Shown: in pieces, positions 3,088-63,600 of the stretch
Numbering within the stretch: position 1 is the first letter of the stretch
Layout: every line of letters begins with the position of its first letter
Assembly: GCA_022059125.1 (NCBI GenBank)
Contig: JAEUWY010000016.1
Span: 806,001 to 870,000 of the forward strand
DNA from: Corynespora cassiicola
Lineage: Eukaryota; Ascomycota; Dothideomycetes; Pleosporales; Corynesporascaceae
Direction: 5' to 3'
Length of the DNA: 64,000 nt
Translations under genes and position numbers: made by a program
Notes under the pieces: model-generated
The model's database searches: none
Seen by the model: only the letters and a program-made list of their open reading frames with translations
Told to the model about the DNA's origin: nothing

Positions 3088-4859
3088 ACAGAGACGCCAG
3101 TCCCGACTAGCCAGCTAGCTTGTTGATGAATGTTCTATGGTTGTGGTAATGCGGACAGCGAGGAAATAAAGTACTCAGGAAGCGGAACTGATGTTCCCAA
3201 CGGGTCTTAATGCCATGGCTGCCGTAGATCGATGAGCATAAACAATTGTCACTAAAATTGGGTACCAACACTGCTGCTACTGGACAGGCGCAAGCTGATC
3301 TCTGGAATAGCGCAGAAAGCGCCAGTCATGGAGAAGCCTACGCGCAGTAGCTATAACTACGCCTCAGTGCAGCATGCCAAGTGAGGAGCCATCAACTCAC
3401 CATGCCCAAGTTGAAGGTAAAAAAGGCTGGGAGGCGACCTTTTTGGGGGGGCCGAGAACGGCCAGTCCCTATGGGAGCAGTGGTTAAGCGCCAGGATGAC
3501 TTGTCCCGTAAGAACAGCGCGTAAGCGCCCGCATGGTTTAGCCGGTATTGGCTGGAGTGTGGAGGCGCCGAGGCACGGGCGCGGCGCCGGAAGCTTAGTC
3601 CTGGGTTGGCTTCGCTTTCTTGGCATCATCACGACCATGTGGCACAGCATGCCGGCGGCTACGCTCAGGTAGCTGAAACCACGCATTCTCTTTTGTAAGG
3701 TGTTTAGAGCGGCTGTGGCTGTTTGCAATCATGAGTTCACGAATCGGTATGTCTCCTGAGAAAGGCGTCTATGGAGGGTGAAACTTAGGGGCTGCACAGA
3801 GTTGAGCCGACGAAAAATGGTCAAGTTGGACTTAGAGCGGGCCGCGCACCATCCTAGCAAATATAGCCCTCGACTCCCAGCGCGTAAAACTCGGCAAGCC
3901 TCTTCACGTGTTCATGCACTGACCCTAGGGTCCGGTTCTGCCGCTGTTTCCAAGATTTCAACGTGATCAGCCAGTTTTCATAAACACCGTATCTTGCATA
4001 CATTGCGCGGCCCTATCAACGACTGTTTCCGCCAATGGGATTGCGGCTGATTAGCCAAAAGATACCAAGCCCATGATGGTCAGAATCACAACAGGTACGG
4101 AAGATAGAAGGCGACAAAACATATCACTTTCCTCATAATCTCAGTCTCCATCATCCAGCAAGCGTGCTAGAAAGGAAGCTAACTAAACGTCTTGAGACGA
4201 TTTCCAGGTATTTGGAATATTAGTGTCCGCATTATCATCATCATGCCAGCTTGACGAGTTTTCTATCAGCAGGAAGTCTCTATATCTTGGTCATGTGATT
4301 CAGCGTCCATATCTCCCTAGCCAGGTAGCTATCAAAATTGCCAGATATCTAACAACGCAGAAATTAAGATATTCTTCTGTATAAGTGAGGAGGTAATTCT
4401 TCGGAACAAACAGATAGCATGCGTCTTTTGATTTCCTGCTGAATCTCAATGGTAGAATCTCACTCTTCCTGGGATGTGATTCCGTGCCTCAGAGTATTGC
4501 AACGGACAGGCATCGTCGTTGCTCATCCCCTCTCCTAGTTCATGAACGGACTTTTTTGTACATGCTTACCATATATCTTGAGGTGTGGTCACGCGTGGCT
4601 TCAATTAGAATCAATCATGCATGCAATTCGTTGCTGACCAGACGCGTTGTATTTGCTCGTAGCCTACCACTACTTATTTCCCGAGGAACACAAATGATTG
4701 AAGAGATGAAAAAGAAATTAAAAGACTGTAGAAACAAATCCTCGCGTGTGCGGCAAACGATCCTTGCAGTAACTCGGCAAACAGGTTACACAGATAGTCA
4801 ATGAGAAAAGCGCCTTGGTGAGGTTGACCAGCTGTGTTACATGGCAATTCCTGCAGCCT
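3088..4859. other. Gene-free interval
   Basis: The interval lies between the DUF3176 start codon and the 3' end of the repeat-peptide gene. It should hold the DUF3176 promoter (proximal to 3088) and the terminator of the peptide gene. The only longer open frame, at 3357-3728 on the minus strand, has no recognisable domain and no clear coding character. I see nothing else. Confidence 0.5.
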
Positions 4860-6102
4860 TCACAAAGGTTGTCGTTCCGGCATGCTGTTTGCGCTGCTGA
4901 ATCCCCGAGTCTTCAAAGCCTCAATCATCTCCACAACACCGTCGTAAACGGATCGAACGACGTTGGTGCGCTTCGCCTCCTGGGTGACATCGCGCTGGTT
5001 CTTCTCCTCAACGTCAAGTTCCTCCTCATCCTCCTCCCTCTTGCCGTTGAACCTGCTAACACCACGACCGTTGAACCGGCTAACGCCGCGGCCGTTGAAT
5101 CGGCTGACACCACGGCCATTGAAGCGGCTGACGCCACCCCTCTCCTCCAAAACACTCTCGTCTTCAGAGTCGTCCTCAGATTCGTCACGCGGTCCGTTGG
5201 GACGCCTCACAGTGCGCTTTCCGTTAGGCTGCCTCACAGCGCGCTTTCCATTGAATCGGCTGACACCCCTCTCCTCGACAACAATCTCGTCTTCCTCAGC
5301 ATCAATGTCCTCCGCTTCGCGCTTTCCGTTGAAGCGGCTGACACCCCTCTCCTCGACGATCACCTCGTCATCGTCGGCCGGCTCCTCGCGCTTTCCGTTG
5401 AAGCGGCTGACACCCCTCTCTTCAACCACAACATCCTCATCAGATTCCTCACGCTTGCCGTTGAACCTGCTAACACCGCGGCCGTTAAACCTACTGACGC
5501 CGCGACCGTTAAACCTGCTAACACCACGACCATTGAATCGGCTGACGCCTCTCTCCTCAACGGTGGCCTCATCTTCAGACTCTTCACGCTTGCCGTTGAA
5601 GCGGCTGACACCCCTCTCCTCCACAGAGACCTCGTCATCAGATTCTTCGCGCTTGCCGTTGAAACGGCTGACGCCTCGCTTGCCATTGAACCTGCTAACG
5701 CCCCTCTCGTCCAGCGTGTCATCTTCAGATTCTTCGCGCTTGCCGTTAAAGCGGCTGACGCCCCTCTCGTCCAGAGTGGCATCCTCAGACTCTTCGCGCT
5801 TTCCATTGAAGCGGCTAACGCCCCTCTCGTTCAGGACGTCCTCCTCGGATTCCTCGCGCTTGCCGTTAAATCGGCTGAGGCCACGGGCGGAAATGTGGCC
5901 ATCGTTGTTGTCCCGTTGGAACCGCTTGTCGATGGCAAGGAGAGGAGCATCAACGGCGGTCTCGCTGCGTGCAAGCAGGTCGTTCTAACGCCATATTAGT
6001 ATCAGAATACATGGCGGGTCAAGTTGGGCCTACCTCAGCGACTGGCACGGGAACCGTCAGAACGGTGAGAGCCAAGGAAGCAATGATAAGAGCGGAACGC
6101 AT
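4860..6102 (-). CDS. Secreted repeat-peptide precursor (KEP / RiPP-like), 17 GVSRFNG cores
   Basis: Two exons, 6102-6034 and 5984-4860, with a 49-nt intron (GTAGGC...TTAG, containing TACTAAT), give 397 residues. Exon 1 encodes a signal peptide (MRSALIIASLALTVLTVPVPVAE). From residue 58 there is one GLSRFNG and sixteen GVSRFNG heptads. Most sit in a cassette R-GVSRFNG-KR followed by an acidic spacer such as EESEDATLDE; two blocks of four heptads are joined by single Arg (RGVSRFNGRGVSRFNG...). Two divergent units (AVRQPNG, TVRRPNG) lie between arrays. A 58-residue non-repeat tail follows. Lys-Arg borders are the classical Kex2/KexB sites, so the likely product is many copies of a short secreted peptide, as in fungal KEP proteins and dikaritin RiPP precursors. 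No homolog can be named and no DUF3328 tailoring gene is in the window. CACGTG lies at 6200-6205 upstream. The gene model rests on my manual splice; the repeat architecture is certain. Confidence 0.88.
5985..6033 (-). other. Phase-0 intron separating signal peptide from repeat region
   Basis: The donor is GTAGGC directly after the GAG codon; the acceptor is CGTTAG; TACTAAT lies about 15 nt before the acceptor as branch site. Removing it joins the signal-peptide frame to the repeat frame with no stop. Splitting the signal peptide onto its own exon means that an ORF caller starting at the internal GTG at 5624 misses the N-terminus. Confidence 0.8.
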
Positions 6103-8563
6103 GTTGTCGGCTGTGGTGATTATTACTTTTCTGGGAAGGTGGGATTGGACGGCTCAGAAGTGGCTATACAAAGGTACGCAAAAGATTAAATGTGCACAGC
6201 ACGTGTAAGTTAAAGTTAGGCACAGCCTGTAAAAAGAAGACGTAGTTGCAAAGAGCGGGTTTGAAGCGGATCCAGATCCTGATCCATCATACTTGGGGGT
6301 CGAGGGGACTTATAACCTTGAGACAAAGGCTCGGGCTGTCATGCCATCATTTACTGGGCAGGGATCGATTAGAGCGGAGTATTGGGCCCTGGTACCTGAA
6401 GCGCCGTTGTCATGCGTTGTCGTGATGGTGGGTGCATTGCAGGATGCGGTACGTGCGGGGCTAAGCACCTAAGCGCCCGGAGTGACGGATTCGGCTAAAG
6501 CAGGACTGCCCCAAGCAACGTCACGCCTTCATTGGTGTACCACACTGAAACTGGATTTCTGTCGTCCACTCTTATTCGAGACTACCGCCTTATCAGTGAC
6601 GCTACACGACATGTGCGTACGCGCCGAGAAACCTGGAAATAGAACCAATATAACGGCAACGATGCGATTGGATCCCTGATCTGCGCATGGAGGGGGACTA
6701 ATCCGCTTGGGGGTTGATGCATTTCAGCGCAGCCCATGGTGAACACTAGGCAAACATCTACACATGGTCTATCATCCAAGGTACGCCCTGACTGAAGAGG
6801 TTGATGCAGGAACGGAGCAGCCACAACCTCGATCACAGTGATGACATTGCCTTTAAGCGCCCTTTGGCCAGAATGACCTCCTGGGCATAGAGACATTAAG
6901 CGACCAAGCAATTGCCAGGCCTTCTGGACCTTCTCAATCGGTATGCACAAGACTTCTTACAAGACATTACAGCCTTGTTGGGGCTGGCTTTCAAAGTCCC
7001 GAGTGTGGAAATTTGCGTTCCCATCCTCAGAACGGAGTTCGGTTTTCGAGCAAGCTGAGACGTGGGAATTGTTCTTGACGCCGATACCCTGGAACCAATA
7101 TATTCCGACCAAATGGATTTCACTCATACGAGCAAGCAACAGTGATGCGCTGACAAGGGATGTTGGTTGTTCACCAAGTAACAGGATCAGGCTGTCCAAG
7201 CCCGGCGGGATGCTCGGTTCGCGTTCGTACCCTTGTCCCTGAGGAGCCATGAAGACCTTGGGCAGCTCCCTTCATCTCAGCCAATCGAATTCTACCATTC
7301 ACAGTGCGTGTGACGATCCAAAAAATTCACCAGCAGGAATTGATTCATGCGATATTATTCGTCCCACCTCACATCTCAGTACATCTGCGTCGCTGCTTCA
7401 TGCATCGTCCAAGATGATAAGAAGGTTGGCAATGCCCCACAATAGACACCATCCTCACCCATAATGTAGTAATTGTTCCGTGACTTGACCGGACGAATGC
7501 GATTCAGCCTTGTTGGTGGTGCTAATGTAGGATTGGTTGGGGGTCATCGCCTGTGTCCAGACGACAACATCTAACATCCAAAGTTCGACCAGAAGAAATA
7601 TCATCTCCATTGGTCTCAGTCAACCACAGACACGAGATAGACCTTGGGTCACAAGGTTTGTCTTCTGCCAGATGGAGGATAGGCGTTTCGGGAAAAGGCC
7701 GCACCCCTCCTTTGATCCACTTCGTCGGATTAGTTCCATTTCAGGTAGGCAGGAAGATAACCGAAAAGGAAGGTGTTTAAGTGGGGCTCTTGCATTCCAA
7801 GGCCAATTGCAGCAAAACATTCTCTGCACTTCATATACAGCTTCTATCTACTGCCAGTAGAAATTTAAGTACGATAGTTTGGCGCAAAAGCACTCAATGA
7901 CATCCCCGACTTGACGTGACAATCAACGATATACTTCTCCGGGCGCTTACAGGCCTTACCAGCAAACGGCGCAACACCCAACAGCGTCGATATGGACAGT
8001 TCGGTAGTTTTACGGCTCGTGCTATCTTCACTGGCGGTGTGATTGCAGCCCGGTAGATACAGCTTGACAAATGGGCATCAATCAAACATGTTTGAAAGAC
8101 GCGGACGGAGTCATGGGCTCCATTCTAATCCCACTCTCATCATACCTGCTGACCTTGTGGGAGCGCTTAATCCACAGAAATCACATACGCAGCAAGTAAT
8201 CACACGAGAAGCCCTTCCTTTGGATATTGTTTAAGCCATGACCTAGGCTCATTCGGATTGAATCACATTCTTGACTATGCAAATGGTACCTTTTGTATCC
8301 AGTCTGCAATTTGCTTTTCCAGATACTGAAACCAGGTTCTATTTCTATACAAAAATCACTAGTACAGTACTTCTTATGACTCGTGGCGTTGGGTAGTACT
8401 ATTGCGAGGTTCAAAAGCTTCAAGTTTGGTTGGCCCCTACGAGCCACTGAACACTACTTGCCAACATTACTATATTTGCCATCATATTGGCAGCCTTCAA
8501 GGATCCCTCTCATATAGTCTTTCCTTCTGATTTGATGAAGAAGAGCCTATTGAGCTTTCCGGA
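6103..8563. other. Gene-free interval with upstream region of the peptide gene
   Basis: The first 200 bases upstream of the peptide gene carry a TATA-like TTTGTATAGCC (minus strand) and a palindromic CACGTG at 6200-6205. The remaining 2.2 kb holds only short, unrelated open frames on both strands without domain or splice logic. No RNA gene or repeat was recognised. Confidence 0.45.
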
Positions 8564-24758: not shown

Positions 24759-26467
24759 CTAGATTGTCGTATAGATCGGAATACCGCGTTTGTTTGTTCC
24801 TACCACAGGTTGGGTGGATCGCTTAGCTGGCGAAACAGAGACAAAGGTGTTCATTGTCGATGGATTATATACTGCGCAAGACTCCACCGCTCCCCTTGGG
24901 TGAAACAGAGAAGATGGCGTCGCATCTCGCTTCCCTTTCGAATTTACAATTGGGCCTGGGAGTGGGGTGGCAGCCGATGGAGCTAGAGATAAAGTCGCAG
25001 CCGAAGTCGGGGTCACACCAGCTGGAGTCGCTGAGGGTATCGGTGTCGATCCGGACGCGGCGTATGCGCTGACAGCATTGCTCGAAGCAGATGGAGAGGG
25101 CTTACTGGCACCACTACTAGGGGCCGGGATGTTATCCTCAAATGCCTTTTGTAGCTCCAGTACTTTGCCTTTGACATTCTCTGCCTTGTTCGCCCATGCT
25201 GTGAATTGGTCTGAAGCCGCCCTGTAAAATTCAGTCTACTGTCTCTAGAACAATCAAAACTCAAGGGCACCCACCTGTTTCTCTCTGCATTACCACCTAC
25301 ACAGAGATCTACGACCATGTCTCCCTTGTAGGCATCCTTCTCACACGCCATACTCGCTTCTCCCTCTCGCGTCCGATCCCACGTGTAGATCAACATACAC
25401 TTCTTCTGCCCCGAGCAATAAAGTGGTGCACAATTGTCTCCTTTCGGATCACTGGTGAACGTGACAGCGACACCGTTCTCATACCCTGGGCATCCTTGTA
25501 GCTTCAGAGTATGATCTGCATTGGTCGCATTCGCATCACTGATATGGCGTAGGGGTTCAGGGTTCGCGCAGTCGAGGAGCGACACATCGTAGTTCATGCG
25601 CAAAAATGAGTCCCCACGAAACGGATCCTGGACTAGTGCGTACTCGAATTGGAAGACATTGTTGCCGCCTGTCTCATTCGCAATTTTCATCGAGATTCCT
25701 TGGCCTGCCAGCTTGTCCATTCCCTCGTGATACCATGCGAAAGGATTTGCGCCGCCGCTGGTATCGGACTTGAGCGGCGCAGTGATTCGATAAGGTTCCG
25801 CATAGGTACTGCCGGCGGTTATGTTCTGGATGATCATGTCTTCGGGTGTGCCGAAGCCTGTAACATTGTCGCGGCAGCCGCCGAGATACCAGGCTCCGAC
25901 TGAAGTTAGGGAAACGGTGTATTTGCAGTTGTTTCGGACGATGACTGATCCAAAGGTCCAACCTTGCTCAGGTTCAGGGAGGTTGCTGACCTTGGGTGTT
26001 GGAGATTGGCCAGGGCGGTTGAGTGATACTGATGCGACTGGGGGCATGGAAAATGGGGCAGTCGAGGGGCAAAAGATCGGAGAACCTGGTGGGATAGTTC
26101 CTTTTGTGGGGGTTGCTTTTGGTTTGACCCCTGCGTTAGAAGTACCGTTGAGCCATGGACCTGATCCTGCGGTATTCGCTGATGATAGGGGAAGAGCAGC
26201 GCTAATTGTAATTCCTGACCCCAATGGAACTGTGCTTGAGAGAGCCAGATAGGCTGGAGAACTTGATAGCAAGACGCTTGATGGCTTGATGCTTGATGCT
26301 GCCGGTGCTGCAGAGATAGCTGCAGCACTTGATGGATATGAGGGGGCAGAAACATAGCTAGCTGCACCTATTGAAGGTGACGGGTTTATTGTATTTGCGT
26401 ACTGTGCAGACGCCTTTTTTATTCCAGAAAGTAATGGCAAGTACACAAGAAGGCTTGTCGGAATCAT
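24759..26467 (-). CDS. Secreted BYS1-like domain protein with Ser/Thr/Pro-rich flanks
   Basis: Two exons, 26467-25275 and 25221-24759, give 551 residues; the 53-nt intron (GTGGGT...TTTACAG) joins VDLCVGGNAER to a tail ending GIPIYTTI. It has an N-terminal signal peptide (MIPTSLLVYLPLLSGIKKASA), a 130-residue Ser/Ala/Pro linker, then a BYS1/thaumatin-like beta domain: SVIVRNNCKYTVSLTSVGAW, then STYAEPYR, GISMKIAN, FEYALV and YDVSLLDC. Cysteine pairs follow (CPGYENG, CAPLYCSGQKKC). BYS1 was named from a yeast-phase-specific Blastomyces protein; the biochemical role is unknown. It is tandem with a paralog 600 bases downstream in coordinates on the same strand, sharing the WDRTREGE / YDRTREGE block, so the two arose by duplication. 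The tail contains several Lys-Arg sites but no repeats. Confidence 0.82.
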
Positions 26468-27082: not shown

Positions 27083-28991
27083 TTACTTACAAGGGCACCA
27101 ATACTTTCTAGGGAAATGGCTTTTATCTACTTTGCACTTTGTCGGGCATTTTTTTGAGCATCCCGGGAGGTTGTCATACGGACCCTTATCACAGGTCGCT
27201 CCTGAATCTCGAGGAGACATGGTATTTCTAGGCGTCGCCGGCGGTCTGGTCACCGCTTCTGTGACCCAACCCTTGGAATACACGTTTCTGCCTTCAAAAT
27301 TATCGCCCCTTTCCCCAGCTTGTCCTCCAGGAGTAGGCCAGGGGAAACAGTCATGCATCAAATCTGAAAAATCCCATGTGCAAACATTGCTGCTGTCCGC
27401 AGGTGACGTTTCTACTGGCCTTGACCCCGGACTTGGCTCCAAGATTTGGGACCTCAGAGGGAGGATAGGTCGTCCTGTCTTCAGCTCTGTCGATTCTAGC
27501 GATTCTGATGCCTTCTCTTCTTCATATACTGGTGGAGTGGGCTTAGGTGCCACTTCTGATATGAACTCTTCGTAATTTGTCATGTCTGTTGGCAAAGGCT
27601 CCGTTTCTGCTGGCACCAAAACCACTGGAGGCGTTGCAGTCATCGAGGGCAACAGACTCCAACATTGCTCAGTTGATATTTTGGTGTTGTAGATACAGGT
27701 GACTGTGTCCATTGGCGCACTTTTTTGTGTGATTGTCACCGTTTCGCGTACGGTTGTTGTCATGTAGAGGGTTGTCATCGGCGCTGCGCAGGATCCTATC
27801 TCATACGACGCTTTCGTTTCTATGTTGTTGACGCTATAAAGCACTGGCTCGTTGGTTTTTTTCGGCTGATTGGTGCTTGATGCTTCCACGTTGTTGTAGC
27901 TGTAGTCCACTTCTTTCAATCGAGTATTGTTGAAACCCCCAAGGTGAGTCAAGTTCGACCCTTCCAAGCTGGTCCATCTATTCGTCTGTGAGTGATCTGA
28001 TGCTTCCATGTTCGTCAAGTTTGTCACAATCGTGGAGGTTGTATTCTTAACGTTCAGTGCTATCGTGGAATTTGATGCCGGGACCGTATCTGAAATATTT
28101 TTCTTCTCGGAATTGTCGTCGACGGTTACCTCGATTTTCGTTTCGAATGTATTTGTCGAACTCGTCGTATTCTTATTGCCTCCATTTTGCCACTTCTGAA
28201 ACCTAGAGAGCGCATCTCTATAGAGGATTAGTATCGCGCCCTCGAAAGCTATTAGTTTTTTTAATCACTCACCCATCTCCAAGTGTTACACACATCTCAA
28301 AATACAGAGTACCGTGGTATTCTTCGTTGCAAGCTAATGATGGCTCTCCCTCTCTGGTCCGGTCATAATTGTAAATTTCATGGCAGAAAGTCTCCCCATC
28401 GCAGTAGATCGGCCGGCAATTTGTCGAGTCATCAAACCAAAGCGCGAGACCCTGCGAGTATCCCGGACATTCCTCCTCCTTCTTTATATACAAGCTGGTA
28501 TCTACAGCCGCCTGCGCATCGCTGATCTCATTCTTGACCGGAGCTGCACAATCCAGAAGCGAGACGTCATAATTGAGCCGCGTGATATTGTCTCGGAACG
28601 GGTTCTTCAGCAAAGCATACTCCAGCTGGAGAATATTGAGAAAGTTTGTCGCATTATTCGATATTTTGATGGAGACTCCCTGTCCCTCCAACTTGTTCGT
28701 TGTTGGGTCTACAATCGCTTCGCCATTGTGCGGCTTCGGGGCTACTAGTCGGAACGGCTCTTCGTATGCGCCTTTTGCAGGGAGGAAGGTGGTATCAAAG
28801 CTTTTATCATCGCTGACATTCCAGGCTCCTACTGATTGGAGCCAGACGTTGTAATCACAACTATTGATTATGCGGACCGAGCCCCATTCTTCGCTCGGAT
28901 CGACGATGTGGCTGGCATTTCGGTAACGTAAGGTGGCAGCATGCGCTGCAGAAAGTAAAAGTGGCGGTATCAGAAACTGAGACCAAGCCAT
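27083..28991 (-). CDS. Secreted BYS1-like domain protein with long Thr-rich, Cys-ended tail
   Basis: Two exons, 28991-28273 and 28217-27083, give 617 residues. The 55-nt intron (GTGAGT...TATAG with GATACTAATCC) fuses what look like two separate frames. The start at 28991 gives the signal peptide MAWSQFLIPPLLLSAAHA; the longer open frame upstream to 29087 lacks signal-peptide logic. The BYS1-like domain is within about 35-240: SVRIINSCDYNVWLQSVGAW, then AYEEPFRLVAP, GVSIKISN, LEYALLKNPFRDN and NYDVSLLDCAAP, closely paralleling the neighbour. The second exon encodes a Thr/Ser/Asn-rich linker with sequons and a TTLYMTTTVRETVTI stretch. It ends in a lysine/cysteine-rich module (CSKKCPTKCK, YWCPCK). 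Probably a cell-surface or secreted protein of unknown role. Confidence 0.82.
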
Positions 28992-29269
28992 GTGAAGTAA
29001 ATAGTGTATATGCTGGATTTTGGAGATTATAGAAATGCAAAATAATGTAGAGATGTGTACAATACTCGAAAATGTGCAAGATTCCAAGGAAGAAGAAGTC
29101 GTTGCGAACAGACATGGATTTTAGAGGGTTGATTATTGGATGAGTGAAGAGAGTTGAGAGCAACAACGCTGAGCATCATTCGATGAGTTTAAAGTTTGAC
29201 TGATGAAATGAACAACGCATGACTTTCGAGCCAGAATTGTTGCCTCTAATTTTGAATCAACGTCCATTC

Positions 29270-57726: not shown

Positions 57727-59000
57727 GTAATTTGAGATGGGCGTGGCTTATTAAGGGTTTTGATACTGGGACCTGCTTAGTACCATGGTCAGGTACGCCG
57801 GCTACTGGTTTGGTGCAGTCCCCTCGTGGCAGCTGACCTCTGCTCACCGGCATTTGGCACGTCGCTGCCCCGTGCAGCGCCGTAGTCGTGCGATTTGGGA
57901 ATGGCAGAGGGCTGCTCAGAGGCAGGCGGCAGGCTCCAGGGCTCGAGGCTACCCCGGCTCGGCTGCAGAATGGCATGCTTGTGGACGTTGCACGCGAACC
58001 GCCATGTACCAGCTACATGACAGCCAGCTCGCGAGGCCATCTCTGCCCTCAGACACGGCACTCCCTTGACTCGCCCTGGCCCTGGCGGCCCTGGCGGCCC
58101 TGACGACATTGGGGCGGCCGCTACGAGGGTGCCAGAGCGCGGCTAGAAAGAAAAAGTGGACTGATGCTCTGGCTTGCTCGACGGGCTCGACAGGCCAGAC
58201 AGGCGCCAGACAGGCCAGGCGGCGCGCGACGAGCACACCAGAAGGGGTGCGCACAGGAAGCAGCGAGCTCGGCGATATTCCGGGGGGAGATCCCAGAGGC
58301 ATACACGAGAGAGGGCAGCGGGCGTTGGATCGCCATTGGCATCACGGGCAAGCAAATTATCCACGGACGAAGCCTATCCAGGGCGCAGAGCCCAACCGTG
58401 CTGATCTTGGGCAGCGTGCTCGCGAGATGCGGGTGCTCTGGCGCGCTTCGGCGGCTGTGATTGCGACGAGGTGCGCAGCGGGCGGGCGCTGAGTCGTCTC
58501 GTCTCGTCTTGTCCTGTCTGGTTTGGTCTCAGGCGGGAGCAGCAGCAGCAGCAGCCCGGCAGTCTGCTTTGATTGAGAGCAGCGCAAGGTAGCAGCACTA
58601 GGGGCATGGGCAGCGGTGCGATGGGCGGCGGATAGCATCGGAGGCCCGACGATTCACGATGCGGTCTGCAGACGGGCGCCGGCGGACCAGTGGCAGAGCA
58701 GCAGGCTGGGCGGTGGGCGGTGGGCGGCGCGCATCACTTTCCACGAGGTCTTCTCGAAGACTTGGTGTCGGACCCGCAAGGTGCCAGGTGCCTCTGGAGC
58801 TAACACCAAGGGGAGCGAGGTGGGGCGCGCCTCCAGACCGTAACTTCAGTTTCATGCACTGGCAATCTCTGCTCTGGCGGCCAGGGTGACGAGGGGTGCT
58901 TGGTGCCCAGACGCGCCGCTGAGTCGCCGGGGTGGGCGCTGGGGCTGGGAATTATCCGAGGCGTGATTGCGATGGCAGCCGTGTTTGTGATGGACGATGG

Positions 59001-59028
59001 ATGGCGGATGGCGGATGGCGGATGGCGG
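59001..59028 (+). repeat. Tandem repeat, 7-bp unit ATGGCGG x4
   Basis: Four exact copies of ATGGCGG, continuing into degenerate GCGG words. Confidence 0.9.
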
Positions 59029-59346
59029 GCGGCGGTTGGCGGAGGAGCGCGCGCTGCCATGGCCAGACGCGCAGCGCGACGAGGGCGCGAGGGCGCGAGG
59101 GCAGAAGGGCCGTTGGCAGGCTTGATGCTTGCAGTGGGGAGCGGAGGAGCGGTGGCCGGCGACGCTCCCGAGGCGCGGCGGCGCGACGGCTGCGAGAGGG
59201 CAGAGGGCAGCGGGCAGAGGGCAAGCGCAGGGCCTGCGATGCTCTGGAGGCCGTCGTCGTGGGCGAGGGTTTGGATGGCGGCCGCAGCGCCGCAGTGAGC
59301 CCGCCGCCCGCCGCGACGGCGACGGCCATGGCCACGGCAGTGAATT

Positions 59347-59373
59347 GGCCTGGCTGGCCTGGCTGGCCTGGCT
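59347..59373 (+). repeat. Tandem repeat, 9-bp unit GGCCTGGCT x3
   Basis: Three exact copies of GGCCTGGCT followed by GGCC; similar TCCTGGCC words recur near 59535-59570. Confidence 0.85.
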
Positions 59374-60666
59374 GGCCGCGCAGCCTGCACAGCGCGCACA
59401 GCTGGCCGCGCGCTGCCCGCGCCTCGCTTTTTTTTTCCAGGGCTCCGGGACTGGGTTCTGGAGGCTTGCGAGCGGGCCCCTGATCCCTGCCGCCGCCCTC
59501 GCTGCCCCCAAGCGAGGCCGGCCGGGGGCCTGTCCTGGTCCGTCCTGGCCTGTCCTGGCCGGTCCTGGCCCGCCGCGGCCGCTGAGTCGCGCGCTGCCCA
59601 CTTACTCGCCCGGCGAGCGCAGCAGCGCAGCACCACCACCACCACCGCCAGCAGGCCCGCAGCCCAGCAGGCCAGCAGCCCAGTAGCCCTCCAGCGCAGC
59701 CAGTCAGCCAGTGCTCTGCGTCCCCCCCCCCCGCCCGCTGCGCAGGTGCGGCGGCCCCCTCCTCGCCCCGTCCCAGGCCCGCCCAGCGCTCCAGCGCTCC
59801 AGCGCCCGTCACGCCTGTCCACCCGGCCTGTCTCGTCTGGTGCTCGTCTGGTCCACGCGTATCCAGCGCGCTGCAAACCTCCACCTCCCTCCTCCGCTTC
59901 CTCTCTACTGCCCGCCTGCCACCCCCAGCGCGCGCTGCCCAAAGCTGCCCTGGCTCGGCTCAACTCTCTCGCATCCTGCCGTCTTTGCCTGCCCCCGTCG
60001 CCCCCCAAGCTCCCCGTCCTGCCCTGTCCGCTGCGGCCCTCGAGCCCTCCGCCGCCTCTGATTGCCTCCCTGGCCCTCTCGTTCGTGGGCACGGCCCGGC
60101 CGACTGCGCGCCACTCCTCTGCCCGGCCAGCACCAAACGTCGACGCATAGACTCGCAGTCTCAGCGCCCTCCACGGCTCGCCCTCGCGCCCTCGCTAATA
60201 TCGAGATCTGGCAGCGCTGGCCTCTTGCCTGCTTCCAGTAGCTGTCTCCGGCTCCATGGTAAGGTCGCACTCAAGCCTGGGTCTCCCTCGCGCGGCTTGA
60301 CTGAGCTTCCCGCCCCTCTGCATCCCACCCAGCTCTGCCCTACGGATCCCTCTGCCCACTGCTCTGCGCCTGCTGCCCTGCGACGCTTGTCAAACTCTTC
60401 CCTCCCCCCCCCCTTCCCTTCCCCCCCAGTGATGACGCGGATTGGCCCGTCGAGTCCGCAACACATCTCCGCCCAAACCCACCGCTGACGTGCTGGTGAA
60501 TTGCGCCCACTGTCATTGCTCTCGCTGCCGAGGCCCCTCCACCCCGTCACTCCTCCGAGCGCGGTGCTGGGCGCAAGCCGTTTGGTCCTGCGAGCCTCCC
60601 GTAGTAATATAGCTCAAGTGGATTATCGCAGCCGCATGGCCTGAGCGGAACCCGTCTGATATAAGG

Positions 60667-63600
60667 ATGGAGGGCGGTGATCCGGACGCGCACACGCAGA
60701 AGAGGCCCCGTTTGGACTCGGTCAATCCAGTGTATAACGGCCTTCCACATCCTCCGCACCCGCCTCAAACCCAATCCAACCGAAACTCATCACATCCCAC
60801 TTCCGTCACGTCGGTCCAGGCCTCGTCTCCTCCACCGGCCCGTCACTACCCTCCTCCCCACAACCTGCCTCCTCCCTCCCAACCGTATCCACCTCAACCT
60901 CACCACCCGGGCCACCAAGGGCACCACAGTCACCAGCCTCACCTAGCTCACCCAGCTCACTCAGCGCACCAGGCTCCTCCTCCCCATCCTCCTCCCGGCT
61001 CCCAAGGTCCTCCTCCACCGCCTCCAGGTCCCCAGGCCCAACCTCACTACCCGCCGGGCCCACCGCAACCCTCACCGTCTATTCCAGCCTCCGACATCCG
61101 AGCCTACTCTGACCCAAGGAACATCCCGTCGCCCAGTCAGCGCACTCATGGCGTCAACGGCTCGGTGACGACCCTCGCCGCCAGATCCACCACCATCCCT
61201 CAGGACAACATCTCCACCTACCGTCCGCCGCCGCACACTCCGCAGGCCACCTCCGCTCCGGAGCCCCATAGCTCCAGGTCCACCAGCGTCAGCCTCGACT
61301 CCAAACCTCCTCCTCCTCCACCTCAAGGCATGGAGCATGGCGCCCCTCCTGGCCCATGGTCAATGAACCCGGAGCAGCACCGTCACCACAGCAATGGGAG
61401 CATGTCCAACGGCTACTCCCACCAGGCCATCAGCCCCCCCAACCCCAACGAGCAGCCCTTCCACCCGCCGCCCATGGGCCAGGGGCAGGCTCCCTATGGA
61501 CAGCCCGTGGGCGCCTACACGCCGGGGCCCTACATGAACCAGGCCGCCTTCGGCCAGGCTGCTCAGATACGGAGGAAGCAGGTGCGGGCCACCCAGGCCT
61601 GCAACAACTGCCGCTCGCGCAAGCAAAAGTGCGACGAGGCACGCCCGTGCCAGTTCTGCCGGGAGAACAATTTTGACTGCCAGTACAAAGATGTCCCGCC
61701 TCCAAAGTGCGTCGTTCCAATTTGGTCTCTTGCCCCCCTGCTAATGTGATAACCCCAGGCAAGACAGGAGCATGATGCAGCTACAGGACAGCGTCAACAG
61801 CATCTCCGACACGCTCAAGAGCTTCGTCGAGGGCTTCAACACGTGGAAGCACAGCGTCGAGAGCCGCCTCCCTCCCTCAAAAGGCGGTGAGGTCATGCAA
61901 ATCGCGTCCAACCACGCCTCGCCCGAACAGAGTTTCGGTGTGCGTGGCTCCATGAGCGAGCAGAGCGGTTCGCGAATGCCTACTCCGGTGCAGGGCCGAG
62001 CCCAAATTAGACGGGTCAACAGCATGAAGACGGAGTCGCCAGTGGTCCCTCACTCAAACATTAGCCCAATTCCACCGCACGCGTCCACCCCCATCAAACA
62101 GGAGTCCATCTTGGTTCCTCAGCAGCCAGCCACTCCCGCCGAGAGCGTCCGGACCGACCACACGCAGCCGGTCGGCGACCCGTCCAAGGACAAGAGCGGC
62201 CTCCAGAGCGATCACACCACGCCAGCCCACCAGCTGCTGGAAGAATGGCCCTCGATGAAGACCTTTTACGAGAATCTGCCCGCGTGGCGAAATCTCGCAG
62301 AGAGAGGCCACAAGATCACAGACTATCCCATGGTCTTCGAGCAGGATCGCGGGCTCATTCGCGTCTGGGGCATCGGAGAGGGGCAGGACGCCAACGACGG
62401 CGCTCAGGGTCCGTCAAGCCCTGAGAGCAACGATTCGGATGCCTCCTCGCCAGCGCCCGTTAGGGAAGGCATTTGGGGCTACCCACCCGCCGATCACTCC
62501 AGCCCAAGCACTTTGGGCGGCGATGCCACTCCCCACTCGAGGGAGACGGTCGGCGGACTGGGCCCTGACGGCAAGCCAAATTTCCAGTCGGTGACGCTGT
62601 GGCGACTGCACTCCTCGTATATGCAGCATATCCACAGTCTCCACCCCTTCCTGAACCCCAGCAAGCTGCGCAAGATGATCTCCGAGTTCAGCGCCGTCTA
62701 CAGTCCCGACTTCAAGGGCAAGACGGCAGCTTCGCCTGGATCCGCCGTGCCGGGCTACCTCAACGCTGGTGTGAAGCGAAAGCGATCGTCTAGCGCGTTT
62801 GGCGACCACTACACGCCCGTACAGGACCCCTCGGTGAACGGCATAGAGCGATCCCTTCGCAACGCCATCGTACTCTTGGTACTGGCGCTGGGCAAGGTCT
62901 GCGAATACGAGGAGCCGCTGCCTGCTCCGCAGAGCGAACGGGGCCTCACTTCGGATGGATCTTGGGGCTTCACCCGTGGGTCGCCGCACTCGGCCAACAA
63001 CAGCTTCAGCGAGGAGATGGAGACGCCTCAGCGGAACATTGACATCATCCCTGGCATGGCCTACTATTCCTACGCGACGGACATCTTGGGCAACCAGCAG
63101 GGAGGAAACACAGTCGCCCATGCTCAAGCAATGCTCTTGGCAGCACTGTATCTGGGACAGTTTGCCAGGGCCTTGGAGAGCTGGAGCTGGATTAACAACG
63201 CCTGCCGGATCAGCCTGGTCCTGATCAAAGCGTAAGGTTTCAATCCGCACATTAATCGCGCTCACTAACACGGATCCTCAGGGATATGGACAAGATCGAA
63301 CGCAAGATCTACTTTGATGCGGCCCACCCTGTCCCTCAGTTTACCGAGAAGGAGAACTACCGACTCAACCTTGTAAAATGCGTTTACTGGACGTGTTTGC
63401 AATTGGAAACGTACGAAAAAAAAAACACGGCCCCAACCACAACCTCTGCACATGCTGACCTTTTCACCCCAGGGACATTCTTGCCGAAATGAGCACGCTG
63501 CCTCCGACCGAAATCTCAAAATACCAAGACCGGATCTCGTATCCGTCTGGCGTCTTTGAGAAATTCCCAACGAACCCTGATGCAATGACATATAATGAAA

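Follow-up and report, generated by a model that had tools for sequence, protein, structure and literature searches.

Fungal KEP proteins are secreted precursors in which an N-terminal secretion signal precedes at least three repeats that lie between Lys-Arg (KR) or Arg-Arg (RR) sites and are dominated by one core (Le Marquer 2019, PMC6339444; Umemura 2020, PMC7329392). The rule given for the class is that cutting at KR/RR yields at least four fragments with at least three similar repeats, and that the repeats make up at least 15% of the protein (PMC6339444). Such precursors are common, having been counted at 7878 in 1345 of 1461 strains, and 2560 of the 7878 are without homologues (PMC7329392). 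Conserved motifs quoted in the Results of one survey are EDYXI, DADAATXYV[A/V]D, YVW[G/A][G/S], SPPHKT, QKLKVD and XSDW (PMC6339444), and what KEPs do is said to be largely unknown (PMC9769878). A Kex2-type, multi-core secreted precursor is also the starting point of the dikaritins and epichloecyclins (ustiloxin, phomopsin, victorin and GigA; PMC9233826), and ascomycete alpha-type mating pheromones are likewise repeated secreted peptides that are released by Kex2 and Kex1.

Here, we describe a gene from Corynespora cassiicola, located in a stretch of 64,000 nucleotides (the window), that encodes seventeen copies of a heptapeptide core, GVSRFNG in all but one. It is a real, intact-looking gene with a strongly selected repeated core and is a new example of the widespread KEP-type precursors, with an unusual mixture of cut sites. 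Its layout is that of the KEPs described in the two surveys, but in most of its cores the left border is a single Arg, and the inner cores of its tandem runs are bordered by a single Arg on both sides.

Gene model and architecture of the repeat array

The gene lies on the minus strand of the window at 4860-6102, the coordinates given in the initial annotation, and encodes 397 amino acids in two predicted exons (CDS 6102-6034 joined to 5984-4860). Exon 1 (6034..6102) supplies 23 codons from the ATG and a hydrophobic, signal-peptide-like N-terminus. The predicted intron (5985..6033) comprises 49 bases in phase 0, with a GTAGGC donor, a CGTTAG acceptor and a branch-like ACTAAT that starts 16 and ends 10 bases before the intron end; it is one of 15 frame-keeping donor/acceptor pairs and was picked because of its donor, its acceptor and the branch-like site. 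Exon 2 (4860..5984) encodes a short pro-region with one KR, the repeat array and a C-terminal tail, and ends in a TGA stop. The best 11-residue Kyte-Doolittle mean is 2.77, at residues 5-15, and the mean stays at or below 1.13 from residue 31 on, which suggests that the precursor is probably secreted. Pro is the residue three before the likely signal-peptide cut, an unusual position for this residue.

The repeat array (5043..5882, minus strand) consists of the 17 cores, acidic spacers and two tandem four-core runs, cores 7-10 and cores 14-17, in which a single Arg forms each joint. The first core (5862..5882) reads GLSRFNG and the remaining sixteen read GVSRFNG, exactly as first annotated; together they account for 17 x 7 = 119 of the 397 residues (30%). 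Two features absent from that annotation are a pair of degenerate units, AVRQPNG and TVRRPNG, with a KR between them, sited between cores 13 and 14 (5193..5240), and a 60-residue C-terminal tail (4863..5042) that begins with the KR after core 17 and holds one further KR. Spacer length, including KR, is 13-19 residues in eight spacers and 37 in the ninth.

The two borders of the core are built differently. On the right, 11 of the 17 cores are followed by Lys-Arg and six by a single Arg. On the left, the border is Glu-Arg in eight, Gly-Arg in six, and Ala-Arg, Lys-Arg and Arg-Gly in one each, the last reflecting an extra Gly ahead of core 14. Arg is thus kept before every core, directly in 16 and with the intervening Gly in one, and the residue preceding it varies; a single Arg stands directly before 15 cores, and just one core has dibasic sites on both sides. 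In silico cutting at the 14 KR sites and one RR site gives 16 fragments, most of which end in GVSRFNGKR and only one of which is bare GVSRFNGKR. Set beside the KEP rule, the precursor has 16 fragments for the four demanded, repeats that are similar as judged by eye, and twice the required coverage. The genome also encodes a Kex2-like candidate processing enzyme, its one P_proprotein match (PF01483, contig C8, 109.7 bits), which sits in an open frame whose translation looks like a subtilase with a transmembrane-like stretch after it. The KEP reading proposed at the outset therefore holds for fragments, repeats, coverage and enzyme, with a putative signal peptide at the N-terminus.

Purifying selection on an orphan core

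Fifteen different DNA sequences encode the 17 cores, and this variation is overwhelmingly silent. Among codon pairs that differ between cores, 447 of 463 are synonymous in the gene frame, as against 276 of 422 in the best other frame. Differences from the core consensus number 48, of which 42 fall at third and six at first codon positions; they cause one residue change, whereas random placement in 10,000 trials caused a mean of 33.4 and a minimum of 23. The pN/pS ratio is 0.034 in the cores, 0.25 in the first six spacer codons after KR and 0.54 in the last five before Arg, the two spacer values being from eight of the nine spacers since the ninth and longest, which contains the degenerate units, does not stay in register. 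Inclusion of the ninth raises the values to 0.38 and 0.67, respectively, and with the six most alike they are 0.16 and 0.66. The core is under strong purifying selection; as the copies compared lie inside one gene and share a history, the test speaks to constraint on the core and not to its age. The spacer end adjoining KR also shows a fair degree of constraint, which is what a Kex2 context would call for. Two long antisense frames on the plus strand (4815-5999, 394 codons; 4963-5988, 341 codons) were rejected as by-products of repeat composition, since no other frame accounts for the synonymous change nearly as well as the minus-strand gene frame.

The repeat is far beyond chance. A GVSRFNG-coding pattern has 16 matches in the 44.35-Mb genome, all of them in this gene, and the reversed control pattern has none. 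The pattern for RFNGKR has 13 matches genome-wide (reversed control, 2), 11 of them in this gene; the other two, on contigs C3 and C6, belong to a dispersed element whose frame is broken by stops and which is without core repeats. The stretch shared by C3:97938-100954 and C6:2638284-2641300 is 94-95% identical over 1293 and 322 bases, lies in opposite orientation at the two sites, and probably represents a dispersed mobile element.

No credible homologue emerged from protein searches. The whole precursor had no match at E <= 1 among the 7998 candidates scored, those sharing most words with it, and the core region, scored against 2045 candidates, had a best E of 0.42 and eight rows at E <= 10, none convincing and seven of them carrying PF07494. 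Candidates were restricted to proteins of 0.55-1.75 times the query length with shared words, limits under which a relative whose core differs might escape detection; the database is rich in named Pleosporales proteins, so the blank result does say something about the core. A search of solved structures with the precursor gave no match at E <= 0.1 and a Pfam scan none at E <= 0.01, and the C-terminal tail searched alone revealed no second genome copy and one further row (E 0.73), taken as chance. We found no literature record of the GVSRFNG core, although the supplementary tables of the KEP surveys, which were not covered, may list it; shorter or variant core strings retrieved only papers unrelated by title and opening of the abstract. 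These results agree with the earlier statement that the core is not known to match any fungal pheromone or RiPP core. GVSRFNG is absent from the KEP motifs quoted in the sections of PMC6339444 and PMC7329392 that were compared, and it bears no resemblance to the motifs from the Results of PMC6339444 listed above. Because KEPs are common and many are without homologues, an orphan core is to be expected rather than startling.

Proposed processing of the precursor and alternative readings

We consider it probable that this gene encodes a secreted KEP-type precursor with many copies of one peptide, from which cuts at KR and at single Arg would yield linear GVSRFNG (computed [M+H]+ 736.374), a lineage-specific signal or interaction peptide. 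Exon 1 would direct the precursor into the secretory pathway, and in the Golgi a Kex2 enzyme would cut after the 14 Lys-Arg sites, giving mostly pieces composed of acidic spacer, Arg, GVSRFNG and Lys-Arg. A Kex1-type carboxypeptidase would then trim the Lys-Arg. Another cut, made between the single Arg and Gly either by Kex2 working less efficiently or by a different protease that accepts single Arg, would remove the acidic spacer and split the tandem runs, leaving many linear copies of GVSRFNG outside the cell, where the peptide would most likely act in signalling or interaction. The first of these cuts has a suitable context: Glu occupies P1' at nine of the 14 KR sites and P2' at eight, and eight of the nine sites with Glu at P1' have an acid at P4', in keeping with a report that acidic residues are over-represented at P1', P2' and P4' where Kex2 cleaves (PMC2515848).

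The second cut, at single Arg, is less straightforward. With dibasic sites on both sides of only one core, it is needed for the bare heptapeptide, so that the initial estimate of about 17 copies of a small peptide stands for the number of cores, and strict dibasic cutting would free just one of them. The published Kex2 scoring matrix gives zero for Glu, Gly and Ala at P2 (PMC2515848), which means that the Arg-Gly cuts would not be standard Kex2 sites. Several products of mushroom KEPs expressed in Pichia were apparently cut after a single Arg, as judged by peptidomics (PMC9769878). The conserved Arg may be a second, single-Arg cut site or may be part of the active peptide, and the tandem runs favour a cut site. 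Each core also contains an internal Ser-Arg at which a general single-Arg protease would cut as well, a difficulty that would disappear if the protease favoured Gly after the cut. It is possible, but quite doubtful, that the precursor carries two release codes, one read by Kex2 at Lys-Arg and the other by a distinct protease at a single Arg followed by Gly, and that free GVSRFNG is a lineage-specific signal recognised by a receptor of its own, possibly replacing alpha pheromone.

How much of the precursor is cut, and where, separates linear GVSRFNG from two other products. If dibasic sites alone were cut, the mature product would be an acidic spacer joined to Arg-GVSRFNG, about 18 residues long, together with two large multi-core pieces. 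The single bare core among the 16 KR/RR fragments, the zero matrix scores for the residues ahead of the Arg-Gly sites and the fairly conserved, EESED-like KR-side spacer end are all consistent with such a product; conservation of that end is, however, also expected from the need for a Kex2 context, the spacers vary in length and drift at their core-side ends while the core is nearly frozen, and two four-core runs joined by Arg alone make little sense if that Arg is uncut. On balance, we regard dibasic-only cutting as unlikely. That the precursor is never cut at all, and serves as a secreted repeat or cell-wall protein with Arg-Gly-rich repeats as a polymer, is a reading to which the Arg kept before each core lends itself, the unit being readable as RGVSRFNG. 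The 14 KR sites, however, nine of them in a Kex2-favourable context, would probably be cut in the Golgi, and the core-side spacer ends are not conserved, which together make an uncut polymer most improbable.

Release of the cores could also be followed by cyclisation through Phe by UstYa-like oxidases, as in the dikaritin reading of the initial annotation. The precursor layout is alike, cyclisation through Phe has been described for victorin (PMC9233826), and UstYa genes are present elsewhere in the genome. But the 26 genome matches to UstYa (PF11807/DUF3328) are spread over ten contigs and none is on the 1.705-Mb contig (C16) that holds this gene, a count that could miss intron-split candidates, whereas published KEP genes with UstYa among the 15 closest genes have it at a mean of 3.09 genes away (PMC7329392). 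Nor did UstYa turn up in the 19 other window frames that were scanned. In further contrast to the dikaritin and epichloecyclin systems, the core is without Tyr, and its Phe is at position five of seven rather than at the C-terminus, where the Phe that links victorin is described to lie (PMC9233826). We therefore hold a dikaritin-type product to be very improbable. An alpha-type mating pheromone is, in our estimate, likewise very improbable. The genome does hold a STE2-type receptor match (contig C12) and four DPPIV_N matches, from which Ste13-type enzymes could exist, and a DNA pattern for the Pleosporales pheromone motif PYG[L/M]P[I/V]G (PMC6339444) has no genome match (reversed control, 2), although such misses are not proof of absence. 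A looser PYGxPxG pattern has 28 matches (reversed control, 61), of which the six read, one of them lying in window frame 60667-61749, do not resemble a pheromone precursor; all three matches to WxYxPYG (reversed control, 4) were read, and none is a repeat precursor. Unlike pheromones of this class, whose typical core is PYGxPxG or has two Cys or Trp, the core described here has no Trp, Pro or PYG motif, and the spacers are without repeated Ste13 dipeptides. Identical 20-base PYGxPxG matches at C6:29093, C6:67876 and C11:164351 suggest another repeated element.

The Asn-Gly-Lys-Arg ends of the units had been likened to an amidation signal. This suggestion gains no support from the genome, in which Cu2_monoox_C (PF03712) has no match; the control genomes also have none, and the result counts neither for nor against it. 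Animal neuropeptide precursors such as those of cnidarian RFamides carry many short cores that contain Arg-Phe, are separated by acidic spacers and end in a single Arg or in Gly-Lys-Arg. The layout here is alike, but the core ends in RFNG rather than RFG, and the likeness is probably convergent.

Genomic neighbourhood and significance

A Pfam scan of the precursor and 19 window frames identified P450 (two frames), GNAT, LCAT, MFS, DUF7029, DUF6536, DUF3176, Gfo/Idh/MocA with Gal80-like pieces, a piece of a class I (Trp/Tyr) tRNA synthetase and two weak Bys1 matches; no tyrosinase was among them, and nothing matched the precursor or six of the other frames. The Bys1 (PF04681) matches, at 25013-26467 and 28269-29087 on the minus strand, fall below the curated cut-off, and their sequences look similar. 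Overlapping long frames on both strands at 58800-60092 are compositionally biased and are probably not genes. The neighbouring DUF3176 gene has its best named relatives in Lentithecium fluviatile (67% identity), Polyplosphaeria fusca (65%) and Massariosphaeria phaeospora (63%), all Pleosporales, so that this one gene points to a host in that order. No near-identical protein is among the matches listed (120 of 524), and the database therefore probably does not contain the host's own copy.

The within-gene codon comparison used here is a simple test that tells genuine peptide cores from repeats due to chance, even where orthologues are lacking. The gene adds an intact-looking and strongly constrained core to the many orphan KEPs of fungi, and its Arg-Gly borders yield a definite prediction for single-Arg processing, one that is worth testing. 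If two release codes do operate, the second protease would set how much GVSRFNG appears free as against in longer, acidic-tailed or tandem forms.
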